IMG/VR virus record: IMGVR_UViG_3300024273_000418
Coordinates: 1-41,140 of that record
From: a virus
DNA length: 41,140 nt
Reading direction: 5' to 3' (one strand)
The position numbers and the translations under genes are program-made. Under the pieces are notes generated by a model. The model was not told the DNA's origin, did not search any database, and saw nothing but the letters and a program-made list of their open reading frames with translations. Shown one piece after another: positions 26,915 through 34,447 of this stretch (positions are counted from its first letter, which is position 1; each line of letters opens with the position of its first letter).

Positions 26915-27616
26915 CTATTTATCTATATCGTCTTTGTATACTAATTTATCGATACGCGATATATTATCACCAACTAAAATTTGTAATAGGAAAATAACAT
27001 TCTCGTCTCTAACATATATGTATTGGCCTTGTATCCAACTTCTAGTTCGTAAATTTTCCATTAAAACAGGACCTGCTTTGACCTTGTCTCCGTTTTTATC
27101 AATCCAGGATGCCAGAGCCGGATTGGCTTTTTTTCGACCAAATGTTAATTTAAAAGGGTAGCGTGTTGGTATATCAACTAGTATTATATTTTTACTACTT
27201 GTTAAAAAGTCTATTGTAGTTGGGTCGGGTTCCCATAATTCAGGATTTCCTCCTAACAATTTATTTGAAATTTTTAATAACATTGATCTATTGTTAGAAT
27301 ATATAGTCAGCGTACTGTATTCGCAACGTACTATATATTCATCTACATATACTTTTAATACATTATAGATAGTATTTGCGTCAAGCAGCTCGTTTTTGGG
27401 TATAGCCACATGAGCACGCCAGCGTGATCTTGTTGGAGTTTCGCCCCGGCGATACTGTTGTAAGTATGTTTGAATCTTTGTCTTGGCAAAAGTTAATCTA
27501 CCATTACGCTGTTGTTCTGTGCGGAAAATACCCGCTAACTGATTTGTTAATTTCAGTTTGTACAGGTATTTTCCATAGTGTAATTTTTTAGTCTCGTGTA
27601 ACTGTAAGTTCAACAT
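26915..27616 (-). CDS. Conserved phage protein, 233 residues, unknown function
   Basis: Begins [20 protein letters not shown] and continues LKLTNQLAGIFRTEQQRNGR. Mixed strands and helices, basic, with FKLTFGRKKANPALASW and NVIFLLQILVGDNISRI near the end. I have an impression of relatives in pelagiphages and cyanophages but no function. It overlaps clpA by 29 bp. A nucleic-acid role is suggested only by charge. Confidence 0.6.
   Translation of the reverse strand: MLNLQLHETKKLHYGKYLYKLKLTNQLAGIFRTEQQRNGRLTFAKTKIQTYLQQYRRGETPTRSRWRAHVAIPKNELLDANTIYNVLKVYVDEYIVRCEYSTLTIYSNNRSMLLKISNKLLGGNPELWEPDPTTIDFLTSSKNIILVDIPTRYPFKLTFGRKKANPALASWIDKNGDKVKAGPVLMENLRTRSWIQGQYIYVRDENVIFLLQILVGDNISRIDKLVYKDDIDK
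26916..26923 (-). promoter_or_regulatory. T4-type late promoter GATAAATA
   Basis: GATAAATA at 26923-26916 (minus strand) is also the end of the upstream gene (GAT AAA TAG, Asp-Lys-stop) and sits five bases before the ATG at 26910. Confidence 0.7.
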
Positions 27617-29840
27617 TTTGGTTCTCTAATACTATTTTGTTATCAACAGTATTTACGACAACCTTGCCGCCGTTCTTTAAGTTTCCAAACAACATGGCTC
27701 TTGAAAGCGGACGCTTGATGTCTTTGTCAATCAAACGCTGCAACGGTCTTGCACCCATTTTAGGATTAAAGCCTGCATCAACTAAGTAATCAAGTGCATC
27801 GTCTGTAATTTCAATAGTAACATTCTTGTCTTTGACTTGATCACGCAACTCTGCAAGAAACTTACCAACAATTTTCATCATCACAGGCTTGCCAAGTTTA
27901 GCAAATGTAATTGTTGCATCAAGGCGGTTACGGAATTCCGGAGCAAAGAACTTTTTCAGTTCGGTATCTTCGTAATCTTTTTCCATAGTGTCGCCAAACC
28001 CGATGTTATTTTTCTCCGAGTCTTTAGCACCTAAGTTAGTGGTAAGGATTAGTACGCAGTTACGTGCATCTGCTTCTTTACCGTTGCTGCCTGTGATCTT
28101 ACCATTGTCCATAAGTTGCAATAAAACAGCACTTACATCAGGGTGCGCTTTCTCAATCTCGTCTAGCAGCAACACACAGTTGGGATTTTCTTGCAATTTA
28201 ACAATAAGCTGACCAGCATTATCTTCAAAGCCCACATAGCCTGGAGGTGCACCAATAAATTTAGATACACTGTGTTTCTCTTGATATTCACTCATATCAA
28301 AGCGTACAAGATTTACACCAAGATGTTTTGCAAGTTGTTTTGCAGTTTCTGTTTTGCCTGTGCCTGTTGGGCCCATAAACACAAAGCTACCAATAGGCTT
28401 GTCATCTGGTTTAAGTCCTGCTTGTGCAACAAGAATTTTATCAACAATTGTTTCAATTGCTTCGTCTTGTCCGTACACACTGCCTTTGAGATTCTTCTCA
28501 AGGTTTGCAAGATTTTCAGTTTCTTTTTCTGCAACTTGTTCTTCGGGGATATTAACAAGTTTAGCAAGTTCGTATTGAATACTGCTTTCAGTAACAACCT
28601 TGTTATCTTCTTGATCACGTACCTTAAAACGACTACATGCAACATCAATCAAATCAATTGCTTTATCGGGCAATTTTTTATCGGGCATGTACTTGATTGA
28701 CAATTTAACCGCAGCATCAATTGCTTCATCTGTGATTTCTACAGCATGAAACTCTTCGTAATACTTGCGAATACCTTGCAGAATCTCTACTGTCATTTCA
28801 GCACTAGGCTCGTCAATACTCACACGCTGGAAGCGGCGCATAAGAGCACGGTCCTTCTCAAAGAACTTACGATATTCTTCCCAAGTAGTTGACGCAACAA
28901 CTTTAATATTGCCTTTTGCAAGAGCAGGCTTCAGCATGTTTGCTAGATCGTTTGAACTATTGCCACCGGCACCTGCACCACTAATCATGTGTGCTTCGTC
29001 GATAAACATAATAGTCTTGCCTTTTTTCTGCAAGGCTTGCAGCACTAGTTTAAAGCGTTCTTCAAAGTCACCGCGGTACTTGCTACCAGCAAGCATTGCA
29101 CCAATATCAAGAGCGTAAACATTATACTCTTTTAAGAACGTGGGTACATCGCCATTGACAATTTTATAAGCTAGTCCTTCTGCAATAGCAGTTTTACCAA
29201 CACCTGGGTCGCCTACCATTAGTACGTTGCTTTTTGAACGTCGACCTAGCGCAAGTGCTAGCTGTTCAATTTCGTCATCGCGTCCGATCACTGGATCGAT
29301 CTTATTGAGTTTTACATTATGATTGAGATCTTCAGTAAATGACCGTAGTGCTTTATTTGCACTTCCGCTATTTTCAGCTTCTTCTTGATCTACATCATCA
29401 TATGCTTCAGTTTCAGTATGCTGATATTCTACATATTTTTCTTTGCTAAGGCCAGCCTGCTGTGCAGCAAAATATGCATAGGAACGCTTCTCGCTCAAGA
29501 TACTGATCATTACATCAGTAATGTCAATCTTGCTTCGTCCTTGGAATAGCACCTGTGCAAATGCTCTGTTAAGAACACGTTCTACTGCTTGTGTTTTTTT
29601 AGGCTTATATTTATCCAACTCTGTTTTAATGTCGTCGCATTTTGTCTTGAGAAAGTTTTCAAGATTGCGTTTCACTAGTTCTGGATCGGATCCAAACTCT
29701 TTAATATTATTTTCAAAATTCTCTTCACACAGCATTGCATAAAGCAGATGCTCGAGCGTTACGTACTCATGTTTTAGTTTTTTGGCATCATTGACTGCTT
29801 TGTCAAATACTACCTGAAGTTCTGTGCTAGGCTCTACCAT
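27588..29840 (-). CDS. clpA: ClpA-type AAA+ unfoldase
   Basis: 750 residues, full length. The N-domain starts [20 protein letters not shown]. The first AAA+ module has [15 protein letters not shown] and MFIDEAHM; the second has [15 protein letters not shown] and [14 protein letters not shown], with arginine-finger region [10 protein letters not shown] and GARPLQRLI (sensor 2). NIGFGD sits where E. coli ClpA has the IGL loop that docks ClpP, so it may recruit host ClpP; no ClpP was seen here. ATG has AAGGA upstream. Grouped with peptide deformylase and DnaJ, it forms a protein-handling block. Confidence 0.93.
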
Positions 29841-30351
29841 ATTTAATCCTTTTTAGTCTCTTTGTGTCTGCTCGTTGAATTTTTAATTTACTCACTCGGT
29901 CAATATATTGTATTCCATGCAAATGATCGTATTCGTGTAAAAAGCAACGTGCATCAATATCGTTGTACTTTGCTTCTACATGTATAACATTTCTATAGTC
30001 ACTTGTCAAGGTATCAAATTCAACAATGCAACTAATTGGGCGTTTTACTCTTAGAAATAAGCCGGGGTGACTAAGGCACCCTTCGGGTCCTAGTTCTACT
30101 TCTTTACTAAGACCTTTAATAACAGGATTCATTACAACAGTAATGTCACCGTATTGTTTGTTTAAAATAGCTTTCATGACAAAAATTTGGTAAGGAAATC
30201 CTACCTGGTTGGCACTTAATCCTAGGCCACCTTCTTTTTTCATTAGATCAATCATGTCTAACGCAACAGGCGCCGGGTGCATTTTTTCAAAGTCAAAACA
30301 CTCTACTGGTGTTTCTAACATTGGATTAGGTGCGGTTATTAATTGCATCAT
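29827..30351 (-). CDS. def: Peptide deformylase
   Basis: 174 residues. All three motifs are present: GGLGLSANQVG (motif I), EGCLS (motif II, metal Cys) and HEYDHLHG (motif III, two metal His and catalytic Glu). Removes the formyl group from new proteins. Several marine phages carry short deformylases; this one has a normal length and a C-terminal basic helix. It overlaps dnaJ by 26 bp and clpA by 14 bp. An ATG one codon in (30348) is equally possible. Confidence 0.95.
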   Translation of the reverse strand: MMQLITAPNPMLETPVECFDFEKMHPAPVALDMIDLMKKEGGLGLSANQVGFPYQIFVMKAILNKQYGDITVVMNPVIKGLSKEVELGPEGCLSHPGLFLRVKRPISCIVEFDTLTSDYRNVIHVEAKYNDIDARCFLHEYDHLHGIQYIDRVSKLKIQRADTKRLKRIKYGRA

Positions 30352-31129
30352 TGATGTCTTTTATCCTTTCTAGTAGTACTGTGTCGGTAATTTTTGGCGT
30401 AATCCCTTTGATCTTTAAGTATAAGTTTCCGGTGGTACCCGAACGTAAATCCGGAAGACCCTGACCGGCAATACTTAAGATTGTTCCTGCCTGTGTACTC
30501 TTAGATATATTAACACGTATTAGGCCACCTGTCAACTTTTCTATGACCACTTCGGTACCTAAAATTAAATCAAAAATATTTACATCTACAGTTGTTCTTA
30601 AATGTCTTCCGTCTCGTTCAAAACGGTTGTGGTTTAATACTCTAACTTGTACTAGTAAGTCGCCACGCGGCAACTGACTGATGCTGCTGTCACCAAGACT
30701 TTTAAATCGTATAATTTCACCGTGTTCTACACCTTGGTGTATTCGTATATTTGCATTGGTGCGTTGCCCGTTGGATATGGTATAAGATGCTATAAAGTCC
30801 TTGCCGGCAATAACTTCTTCAAGAGTCATTGTGACTTGAATTCTAATATCTTTATTGCGACTAACCTGCCGTTTGCTTCCAAAAAATGAAGAAAATACAT
30901 CTTCAAAATCCGCAGCGGATGCATTAAAGTTTTGTCTTGGTGCAGGACGATCGTAGTTGGCACGCTTACCAGGATCTCTTAGGGTTTGATACGCTTCATT
31001 TATTTCAGCAAATTTTGCATGATCGCCACCTTTATCAGGATGGTGCGCCATAGCCATTTTTTTGTATGCTGATTTAATTTCGTCTAACGTTGCTGTTTTA
31101 TCTACATTAAGTAGTTGATAATAGTCCAT
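30326..31129 (-). CDS. DnaJ/CbpA-like co-chaperone without zinc finger
   Basis: 267 residues. The J domain begins at once: MDYYQLLNVDKTATLDEIKS, then the HPD motif in MAHHPDKGGDHAKFAEINEA, which fixes the start codon. The C-terminal DnaJ peptide-binding domain follows (IRIQVTMTLEEVIAGKDFIA, ...LTGGLIRVNISKSTQAGT), with no CxxCxGxG repeats, as in CbpA. The ATG is in the right arm of a perfect 14-bp inverted repeat, five bases after GATAAGTA, and has no clear Shine-Dalgarno site. Confidence 0.9.
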   Translation of the reverse strand: MDYYQLLNVDKTATLDEIKSAYKKMAMAHHPDKGGDHAKFAEINEAYQTLRDPGKRANYDRPAPRQNFNASAADFEDVFSSFFGSKRQVSRNKDIRIQVTMTLEEVIAGKDFIASYTISNGQRTNANIRIHQGVEHGEIIRFKSLGDSSISQLPRGDLLVQVRVLNHNRFERDGRHLRTTVDVNIFDLILGTEVVIEKLTGGLIRVNISKSTQAGTILSIAGQGLPDLRSGTTGNLYLKIKGITPKITDTVLLERIKDINDAINNRT

Positions 31130-31172: not shown

Positions 31173-31505
31173 TTACTTTTTGGATATTGCTTCTTTAGCA
31201 TAGAACGCTGCTACAATTGCTGCAACTGATACAAAGTATGTAGGGGCCATTGCCCCTAGTACTGTTGCTGCCTGCTCTAATTCTATTGATACTGCTAGTA
31301 TGACAGCAAACGGGTATAGTAGCATACCAAATAGAGCAAACCATGCCATTTGTCTCTGTGCATCACGCATTGCATCGTTGTCTTCCAAACGCTTGCGCTT
31401 GAATTCAAGATCCATTGCTGCTTCTTGTGCAGAAATGTGTCCATCGCCGTTGGCGTCCATCATGTCTGCTGTACCAGCATCCATTGTGATTTGTTTACTT
31501 GCCAT
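31173..31505 (-). CDS. Two-span membrane protein with EF-hand, holin candidate
   Basis: 110 residues from the ATG at 31505 with a GGGGG stretch upstream; a TTG at 31520 is an unlikely alternative. N-terminal segment MMDANGDGHISAQEAAMDLE is a canonical EF-hand calcium loop (D-x-N-x-D-G-x-I-x-x-x-E) followed by a charged helix. Two membrane helices follow, WFALFGMLLYPFAVILAVSI and MAPTYFVSVAAIVAAFYA, with a short basic tail. Position beside spanins and endolysin argues for a holin. A late promoter at 31539 would drive it. An unrelated membrane protein is possible. Confidence 0.6.
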   Translation of the reverse strand: MASKQITMDAGTADMMDANGDGHISAQEAAMDLEFKRKRLEDNDAMRDAQRQMAWFALFGMLLYPFAVILAVSIELEQAATVLGAMAPTYFVSVAAIVAAFYAKEAISKK

Positions 31506-31531: not shown

Positions 31532-31539
31532 TATTTATC
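31532..31539 (-). promoter_or_regulatory. T4-type late promoter GATAAATA
   Basis: GATAAATA at 31539-31532, 26 bp before the holin-candidate ATG, with room for a normal ribosome site. Confidence 0.8.
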
Positions 31540-31549
31540 TTCTGCTATA

Positions 31550-31921
31550 TTATTCCGCTGATTGTGCCAGTGGCGTAACAGCTTCTTCGTAGTACACAAT
31601 GATCTCTTGTTGCTGTTCAATATAGCGTCTTAGTTCTGCAATATTTAAACTAAGATTTTCATAGTCTCTAACTGAGATAGCAATGTACACAAGTTCGCCA
31701 TTCTTTGCTGTAAAGTCTGCAACAAACTGATCAAAATTTTCTGTGGTAACAACGTAGATCTTAATACCATTCAGCTGAACACCTTTGGGGCGTGCCACAA
31801 TAGGTACTGTTGTTTTTACACTATTGGTTACTACTTGTATCTTTGGTTCTTGTCCTAGACTACTGCATCCTATCAGGGTCAGTAATATTGCCGAGATCAT
31901 TCCATAACGTATCAGTTGCAT
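31550..31921 (-). CDS. Outer-membrane lipoprotein, o-spanin candidate
   Basis: 123 residues from the ATG at 31921 (MQLIRYGMISAILL), which has AGGA six bases upstream. The lipobox is LTLIGC followed by SSLGQ, so it should be an outer-membrane lipoprotein. It overlaps the i-spanin candidate in a different frame by 62 bp, the classic Rz/Rz1 layout. It is long for an Rz1 and has a helical C-terminus (LRRYIEQQQEIIVYYEEA), which may allow it to pair across the periplasm. Confidence 0.65.
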   Translation of the reverse strand: MQLIRYGMISAILLTLIGCSSLGQEPKIQVVTNSVKTTVPIVARPKGVQLNGIKIYVVTTENFDQFVADFTAKNGELVYIAISVRDYENLSLNIAELRRYIEQQQEIIVYYEEAVTPLAQSAE

Positions 31922-32246
31922 CTTGCATCCTATTTTCAATTAATCCTGGCTTTCTCAACGCCAGAGATGTTAGATTGTGTGTTTGTAGAGTAGCACGAAG
32001 TCCGTCTCCGTATGCCTCTGCTTTTTGTAAGTCCGATTGTAGTGTTGCATTAAGCTCTGCATTGCGAATTGCATCTGCTTGTAAAGTAGCAACACTATCT
32101 TCGCTGATTTGTACTGCTACTTCCATTTTTACAACATTTGCTCTTGCTGTTTCTAAATTGCTTTGTATTCTTTTAACATACGCAAACCCCATACCTGCTG
32201 TTGCAAGTACAGTTAACACCATGGCAATCTTAATAGAATTAAACAT
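31860..32246 (-). CDS. Inner-membrane coiled-coil protein, i-spanin candidate
   Basis: 128 residues. A single N-terminal membrane helix (MFNSIKIAMVLTVLATAGMG) followed by a long periplasmic coiled coil (IQSNLETARANVVKMEVAVQ, VATLQADAIRNAELNATLQS). This is the topology of Rz-type i-spanins. It starts 5 bp after the endolysin stop and overlaps the lipoprotein gene. Assignment comes from topology and neighbours, not a family match. Confidence 0.65.
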   Translation of the reverse strand: MFNSIKIAMVLTVLATAGMGFAYVKRIQSNLETARANVVKMEVAVQISEDSVATLQADAIRNAELNATLQSDLQKAEAYGDGLRATLQTHNLTSLALRKPGLIENRMQDATDTLWNDLGNITDPDRMQ

Positions 32247-32250
32247 AGTT

Positions 32251-33129
32251 TTAGTCGTCCAATAATTTAGCTAATGTCATTGGCCCAGCAATACCGTCTG
32301 CTGATAATCCATTCTTGGCTTGCCACGCTTTTAGCGCACGTTCTGTACCCGGTCCAAATGCTCCGTCTGCACCAACACCTAGTGCTACCTGGATCATTTT
32401 AACGCCGTCGCCACGCGACCCTTTGCGTAGGGTACCAATGTCGCTTACATCCATATCATTGTCATCGTCATCATGTGCTTCTGCTAGGCTTACTGGGCTG
32501 CCGAATACTTGCATTGCTTTCTTATAACGTGCCTGACGGTCAGCAAGACCGATGTTGCCGCCGTTGATGACCTTGGTCATTTTTGTAACATCATCTGTGT
32601 CAGCAATGTTGTTGAGTTTCTTAGTGTCCCAGAACCAGCAAGCTGACTCCACTGCGCCTTTTGGAGTTGCTACATAGTCTGCTGCTTGTTCTGCTGTCAT
32701 GCCTACAAACTTGCCAAAGCCAGTGTAGTTCTCACGACCAGTAAGTTGCTTTAGTCCACGTCCGCGGAATCTCCAACCGTCACCGGCTTTGGTGTTGCCC
32801 ATTTTGTACTTACGGAACTCGTCCATGTACACATAGTTGGCAATCTTCTCTGGGTTACGTGCATACTGGGCAGCACTGCGCTTGGGTGCGGCACCAAAGT
32901 AACGACCAAACACTGCGTTAAGTGATTTCTCACTGTAGTTTAGATTTTCTTCAAGTGAGTTAAAGTTGTTTGATTCATGAGCGCATTGGCTAATAAAGTG
33001 TGCCATGCGTCTTTGTGTAGTAATGCCATACTTAGGCAGTACGTCTACAAGTGCAGCGTGCCACGCATCAACATTTTTGTTGCCTGGAATTAGTTGTGCT
33101 AGGTGTTCCTTCTTTAATTCAAAACTCAT
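32251..33129 (-). CDS. Endolysin, GH19-like lysozyme/chitinase with peptidoglycan-binding domain
   Basis: 292 residues. The catalytic part has MAHFISQCAHESNNFNSLEE, the LNYSEKSLNAVFGRYF segment, WRFRGRGLKQLTGRENY and KGAVESACWFWDTKKLNNIA, typical of GH19 lysozymes; E70-region HESNNF supplies the likely acid. After an Asp-rich linker (HDDDDNDMD) the C-terminal domain GSRGDGVKMIQVALGVGADG, PGTERALKAWQAKNGL is a PG_binding_1 repeat. There is no signal peptide, so it needs a holin. It heads the lysis cassette. Confidence 0.88.
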   Translation of the reverse strand: MSFELKKEHLAQLIPGNKNVDAWHAALVDVLPKYGITTQRRMAHFISQCAHESNNFNSLEENLNYSEKSLNAVFGRYFGAAPKRSAAQYARNPEKIANYVYMDEFRKYKMGNTKAGDGWRFRGRGLKQLTGRENYTGFGKFVGMTAEQAADYVATPKGAVESACWFWDTKKLNNIADTDDVTKMTKVINGGNIGLADRQARYKKAMQVFGSPVSLAEAHDDDDNDMDVSDIGTLRKGSRGDGVKMIQVALGVGADGAFGPGTERALKAWQAKNGLSADGIAGPMTLAKLLDD

Positions 33130-34439: not shown

Positions 34440-34447
34440 TATTTATC
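34440..34447 (-). promoter_or_regulatory. T4-type late promoter GATAAATA
   Basis: GATAAATA at 34447-34440 in the divergent gap, 27 bp before the ATG at 34412. Confidence 0.85.

Follow-up and report, generated by a model that had tools for sequence, protein, structure and literature searches.

A conserved EF-hand loop on a small, predicted two-helix membrane protein encoded beside phage lysis genes

The triggering of the holin is the lysis clock of a phage, and how this clock is set is a long-standing question. Class II holins, such as S21 of phage 21 and gp17.5 of T7, have two membrane helices and an N-in/C-in topology. In F1 mycobacteriophages, a holin-like pair located in one lysis cassette has been dissected, namely the two-helix N-in/C-in protein and the single-helix protein of LysF1a/LysF1b (PMC13056207). 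The authors of the phage Melnitz genome discussed the CsgG curli pore as one possible pinholin (PMC9004378). A preliminary description of the DNA studied here proposed a holin candidate with an EF-hand, suggested that a calcium-sensing holin could couple the timing of lysis to calcium entry or membrane damage, and was not aware of an earlier description of such a mechanism. Our literature search, which covered few subscription papers, found nothing relevant to an EF-hand holin.

The window, i.e., the whole stretch of DNA that was analyzed, comprises 41,140 nucleotides of the virus record IMGVR_UViG_3300024273_000418. The gene of interest (hereafter, the EF gene) is located on the minus strand, with an ATG at 31505 and a stop codon ending at 31173; a GGGGG sits a short way upstream of the ATG. 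The dN/dS values of the gene against eight relatives were 0.11–0.26, which indicates purifying selection. The top match of its product in BFVD was an unnamed viral protein of 84 aa with 52% identity. The features of the locus are as follows:

32251..33129, minus strand: endolysin, GH19-like, with a peptidoglycan-binding domain (phrog_181, E=2e-76; PF01471)
31860..32246, minus strand: inner-membrane spanin, Rz-like (phrog_739, E=5e-8)
31550..31939, minus strand: outer-membrane spanin, Rz1-like lipoprotein (phrog_812, E=8e-13)
31532..31539, minus strand: GATAAATA, similar to late promoters of the T4 type, located 34 nt upstream of the EF gene ATG
31173..31505, minus strand: EF-hand two-helix membrane protein, 110 aa (ORF and translation, purifying selection, large family)
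31422..31457, minus strand: EF-hand loop DANGDGHISAQE, residues 17–28 (ligand conservation across the family, sub-threshold Pfam match, profile matches in the PDB)
31287..31343, minus strand: predicted membrane helix 1, about residues 55–73 (hydropathy, AlphaFold2)
31194..31247, minus strand: predicted membrane helix 2, about residues 87–104 (hydropathy, AlphaFold2)

The gene order in the window is two virion genes, endolysin, Rz, the overlapping Rz1, the EF gene, DnaJ, deformylase, and Clp ATPase. The preliminary description had placed an EF-hand loop ahead of two membrane helices, within a lysis cassette. Both points were borne out: the ORF is real and encodes the loop followed by two hydrophobic stretches, and it is preceded by the endolysin, Rz, and Rz1 genes recognized by PHROGs.

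The segment DANGDGHISAQE is a 12-residue loop with oxygen ligands at positions 1, 3, 5, 9, and 12 and glycine at position 6, as in a canonical EF-hand. It was the sole match to the strict EF-hand pattern in the called ORFs of the window (13,629 residues). At least one strict match appeared in 10 of 2000 residue shuffles; on this result and the conservation described below, a chance origin of the motif was rejected, the conservation being the stronger of the two arguments. The Pfam EF-hand_5 model matched the window protein with 19.1 bits (E=0.0009), and the Pfam EF-hand score of the DC31 member was 22.2 bits, both under the gathering score of 25.9; short models of single EF-hands often miss. 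The profile of the whole family matched solved calcium-binding proteins and calmodulins in the PDB with E=2e-8 to 8e-6. The 12-residue loop, its ligand positions, and the flanking helices are shared with calmodulin and Entamoeba CaBP1, whereas the phage protein has one hand, joined to a membrane hairpin. No second, paired EF-hand was found in the same chain, so any EF-hand pairing would be between subunits. The protein probably binds Ca2+.

A single query retrieved at least 597 related stretches from IMG/VR, and the family is very common in marine and freshwater phages. Among isolates, its members were identified in phages HTVC008M, Melnitz, CRP-207, CRP-345, CRP-810, and DC31; the hosts of family-bearing phages include SAR11, OM43, Roseobacter relatives, and Limnohabitans. 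Exactly one copy was present in each of 22 phage records of 50–275 kb. All database copies examined were labelled “hypothetical protein,” and the family is unnamed. Three subfamilies with a mutual identity of roughly 30–40% were distinguished: A (window-like), B (DC31-like), and C (CRP-810-like). In 175 distinct homologues from all three, the loop positions D1, N/D3, D/N5, G6, I/V/L8, S/T/D9, and E12 were nearly fixed. Subfamilies A and B combine D5 with S/T9 and subfamily C combines N5 with D9, the number of acidic ligands being kept.

Bias of the query towards the loop as the cause of this conservation was removed by fetching homologues with the membrane half alone, the loop being left out of the query. 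This search yielded 186 distinct homologues, 178 of which carried the strict EF-hand pattern. Among the eight others, four had an N-terminus cut by contig ends, and L415/L416 and L465 departed from the pattern only by Glu at position 9. The N-terminus was readable in 182 of the 186 homologues, and the loop ligands were kept in 180 of these (about 99%). Loss of the loop acids in relatives had been named in the preliminary description as a possible refutation, and its idea survived this check. The available sequences thus leave very little doubt that the EF-hand loop is a conserved feature of the family. Two exceptions were noted. The sole homologue without the loop, which retains the membrane hairpin, is encoded downstream of a gp51-like gene (L302, 1381–1692). 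In another homologue (L008, 2989–3321, the same contig as L230), Glu at loop position 12 is replaced by Lys, and the lysis-type locus is otherwise intact.

With 110 aa and two hydrophobic helices, the protein is predicted to share the small size and the membrane helices of holins. An AlphaFold2 model of the window protein was built from an 89-sequence family alignment without rows from annotated phage records (mean pLDDT 80, pTM 0.48). The model contains helices at residues 10–16, then the loop, an unbroken helix at 26–73, a short helix at 77–85, and a helix at 87–109. The long helix after the loop begins as a charged stretch ahead of both hydrophobic helices, and the exiting helix of the EF-hand and membrane helix 1 are predicted to form one rod (residues 26–73). 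The lower-confidence model of a subfamily B member (mean pLDDT 68) likewise showed the exiting helix fused to membrane helix 1. Residues 9–48 of the window model were superposed on Entamoeba CaBP1 with 0.9 Å over 40 residues, at a Z of 4.8 that was not above unrelated helical rows and a pLDDT of only 59–69 in the EF-hand part. A Foldseek search of the model against the PDB gave no significant match, and the Z values of a further comparison were middling (best 6.2). The segments preceding helix 1 and following helix 2 are positively charged, and the loop between the helices is acidic. This pattern favours an N-in/C-in topology, in which the EF-hand is predicted to be cytosolic.

The protein therefore resembles class II holins in size, in the number of helices, in predicted topology, and in its place beside endolysin and spanin genes. 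It differs from them in matching none of their sequence families, in the EF-hand at its N-terminus, and in the long helix that is predicted to run on into membrane helix 1. The named holin models of Pfam, PHROGs, and NCBIfam gave no match above threshold to members of A, B, or C. A weak match to phrog_2524 (E=0.096) was not upheld, and T4 holin T (PF11031) was not found in a search run without a positive control. Homology to 3TM holins was likewise not detected: the profile comparison of the family with GTA_holin_3TM (PF11351)-type proteins, the holin-like neighbours of the EF gene in subfamily C, gave an hhalign probability of at most 0.3%. Because the named families gave no match, the best reading is that the EF-hand protein works like a two-helix holin, and membership of a named holin family is not claimed.

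In the window and in CRP-345, the cassette encodes no membrane protein other than the spanins and the EF-hand protein. Within the DnaJ-linked (window-like) group of subfamily A (33 loci), an endolysin or spanin gene was located near the EF gene in 22 of the 24 well-flanked loci. An endolysin gene was near in all 51 well-flanked loci of subfamily B (81 loci in total), together with Rz-like and XhlA-like genes, and in 27 of the 31 well-flanked loci of subfamily C (54 in total). A further 30 loci of subfamily A had a mixed setting. The endolysins neighbouring the EF gene are of different types across phages. The flanks of 6–8 kb are a small part of genomes of 55–147 kb, so the recurrent linkage would not be expected by chance. 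We consider it likely that the protein is a membrane component of the lysis step, whether as holin, co-holin, or antiholin. The calcium-sensing holin of the preliminary description stands in part: the loop ligands are kept and the lysis setting recurs, but no holin family was matched.

Our preferred reading, which we hold tentatively and at slightly less than an even chance, is that the protein is holin-like and acts in lysis, with ions that bind its cytosolic EF-hand tuning how it assembles or is triggered. Such a two-helix membrane protein, its termini both facing the cytoplasm, would be made together with the endolysin and spanins, would accumulate in the inner membrane, and would help to permeabilize it, after which the endolysin and spanins could act. 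The single N-terminal EF-hand would bind Ca2+ or another divalent ion. Single EF-hands normally pair, and Ca2+ is low in the cytosol and about 10 mM in seawater; since a lone hand normally needs a partner and the ion is scarce inside and abundant outside, ion binding could drive the pairing of subunits and promote hole assembly. The continuous exiting helix and membrane helix 1 would carry this pairing to the membrane, and Ca2+ entering via the first lesion could trigger the remaining protein all at once. That Ca2+ alters the timing of lysis is plausible but rather unlikely. Still more doubtful is the fullest version, a widespread holin family with a cytosolic EF-hand, in which Ca2+ passing through the first lesion triggers the rest cooperatively and lysis timing is calcium-gated. 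Calcium-tuned lysis is nevertheless a testable idea raised by an EF-hand loop on a lysis-linked membrane protein, and a soluble ion-binding domain on a holin-like hairpin offers a direct handle: one ligand can be altered and lysis timed.

Two observations complicate calling the protein “the holin,” namely a second holin-like gene in most subfamily C cassettes and the copies at baseplate-hub genes in T4-like Pelagibacter and OM43 phages. The former is compatible with an antiholin or co-holin role, in which the protein would form no hole of its own and would tune a neighbour, with ion binding as the signal. A 3TM holin-like gene was present in 48 of the 54 subfamily C loci and directly followed the EF gene in 39, one type of these neighbours matching PF11351 and phrog_3427 “holin.” The gene immediately preceding the EF gene in 28 of the 33 window-like loci, and tightly coupled to it, encodes c7TM, an unnamed membrane protein with one helix (e.g., L023, 2199–2486), which is a possible partner of the EF-hand protein. 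These c7TM cassettes have the same two-helix plus one-helix make-up as the LysF1a/LysF1b pair, through which mycobacteriophages provide a precedent for two holin-like genes with roles of this kind in one cassette; that pair is without an EF-hand, and the likeness is one of architecture rather than a claim of homology (PMC13056207). However, an antiholin should stay with a single partner, whereas the neighbours here (3TM holin-like in C, c7TM in window-like loci, XhlA-like in B) come from several families without detectable mutual homology, or are absent, as c7TM is from the window and as in CRP-345, and the EF gene stays. A protein that acts autonomously in a holin-like manner is thereby favoured over a dedicated antiholin, and we regard the antiholin or co-holin role as an unlikely alternative. 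We also find it improbable that the EF-hand of a holin-like protein is purely structural, with an ion bound constantly that stabilizes the N-terminus and senses nothing. In bacteria, a lone EF-hand loop can have a structural function, and around a seawater host the site would be saturated if the N-terminus lay outside; the charge pattern, however, predicts a cytosolic N-terminus, where Ca2+ is low, and in the two natural exceptions (E12K and loss of the loop) the remainder of the protein is retained, which means that folding does not require the loop in all cases.

The hub-linked copies bear on a third possibility, that the protein serves as a membrane factor in assembly of the tail hub or in some other late membrane task, its gene lying near lysis genes only as a fellow late gene. 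In the second group of subfamily A (27 loci, including HTVC008M and Melnitz), the EF gene is flanked by gp51-like/hub genes on one side and by a tape-measure-like gene on the other, and no lysis gene was found near it. On the other hand, in four T4-like records that contain the hub gene, the EF gene is located away from it, and in two of these records (G009 and G011) an endolysin or lysozyme gene is located about 4 kb from the EF gene on the same strand. The Roseophage and Limnohabitans phages retain the EF gene beside an endolysin gene. Hub linkage is thus not general, the identity of a baseplate-hub protein was rejected, and lysis linkage recurs in unrelated phages; a role outside lysis appears quite improbable.

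If the calcium-gated, holin-like reading were true, the family would supply an inner-membrane holin candidate for the T4-like Pelagibacter and OM43 phages. Melnitz-3 gp108 (QZI95058.1; L081, 4959–5288) is a member of the family and would be a simpler inner-membrane candidate for Melnitz than the curli pore; CsgG is a proposed lysis-timing pore in a family-bearing phage, but a relative of an outer-membrane curli pore. The lysis passages of the Melnitz paper do not include gp108, and the words EF-hand, calcium, and holin (except pinholin) do not occur in it (PMC9004378).

The element GATAAATA resembles late promoters of the T4 type and may serve as one in this phage. Seven minus-strand copies were found in the window, at 34447, 31539, 29615, 26923, 22918, 22046, and 20748, six of which lie 13–36 nt upstream of a gene start. 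The copy upstream of the EF gene was absent from the other window-like loci, and as proof of late expression of the EF gene the element was set aside as weak and confined to the window.

Several further observations were made at the related loci. In CRP-207, the “putative lysozyme” gp73 (L082, 3292–3873) had no PHROGs lysozyme match and was therefore left out of the lysis context. It clusters with a helix-plus-coil membrane protein and is probably misannotated. Two T4-like phages that also carry the EF gene encode a 153-aa protein weakly similar to the GTA_holin_3TM/phrog_3427 holin (L469, 2633–3094; L470, 2262–2720), adjoining a ribonucleotide-reductase-like gene and far from the endolysin. 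In the window, the lysis cassette is followed at 27588–31129 by the DnaJ, peptide deformylase, and Clp ATPase genes, which occur together in about 30 related loci and resemble a phage-borne protein-quality module.
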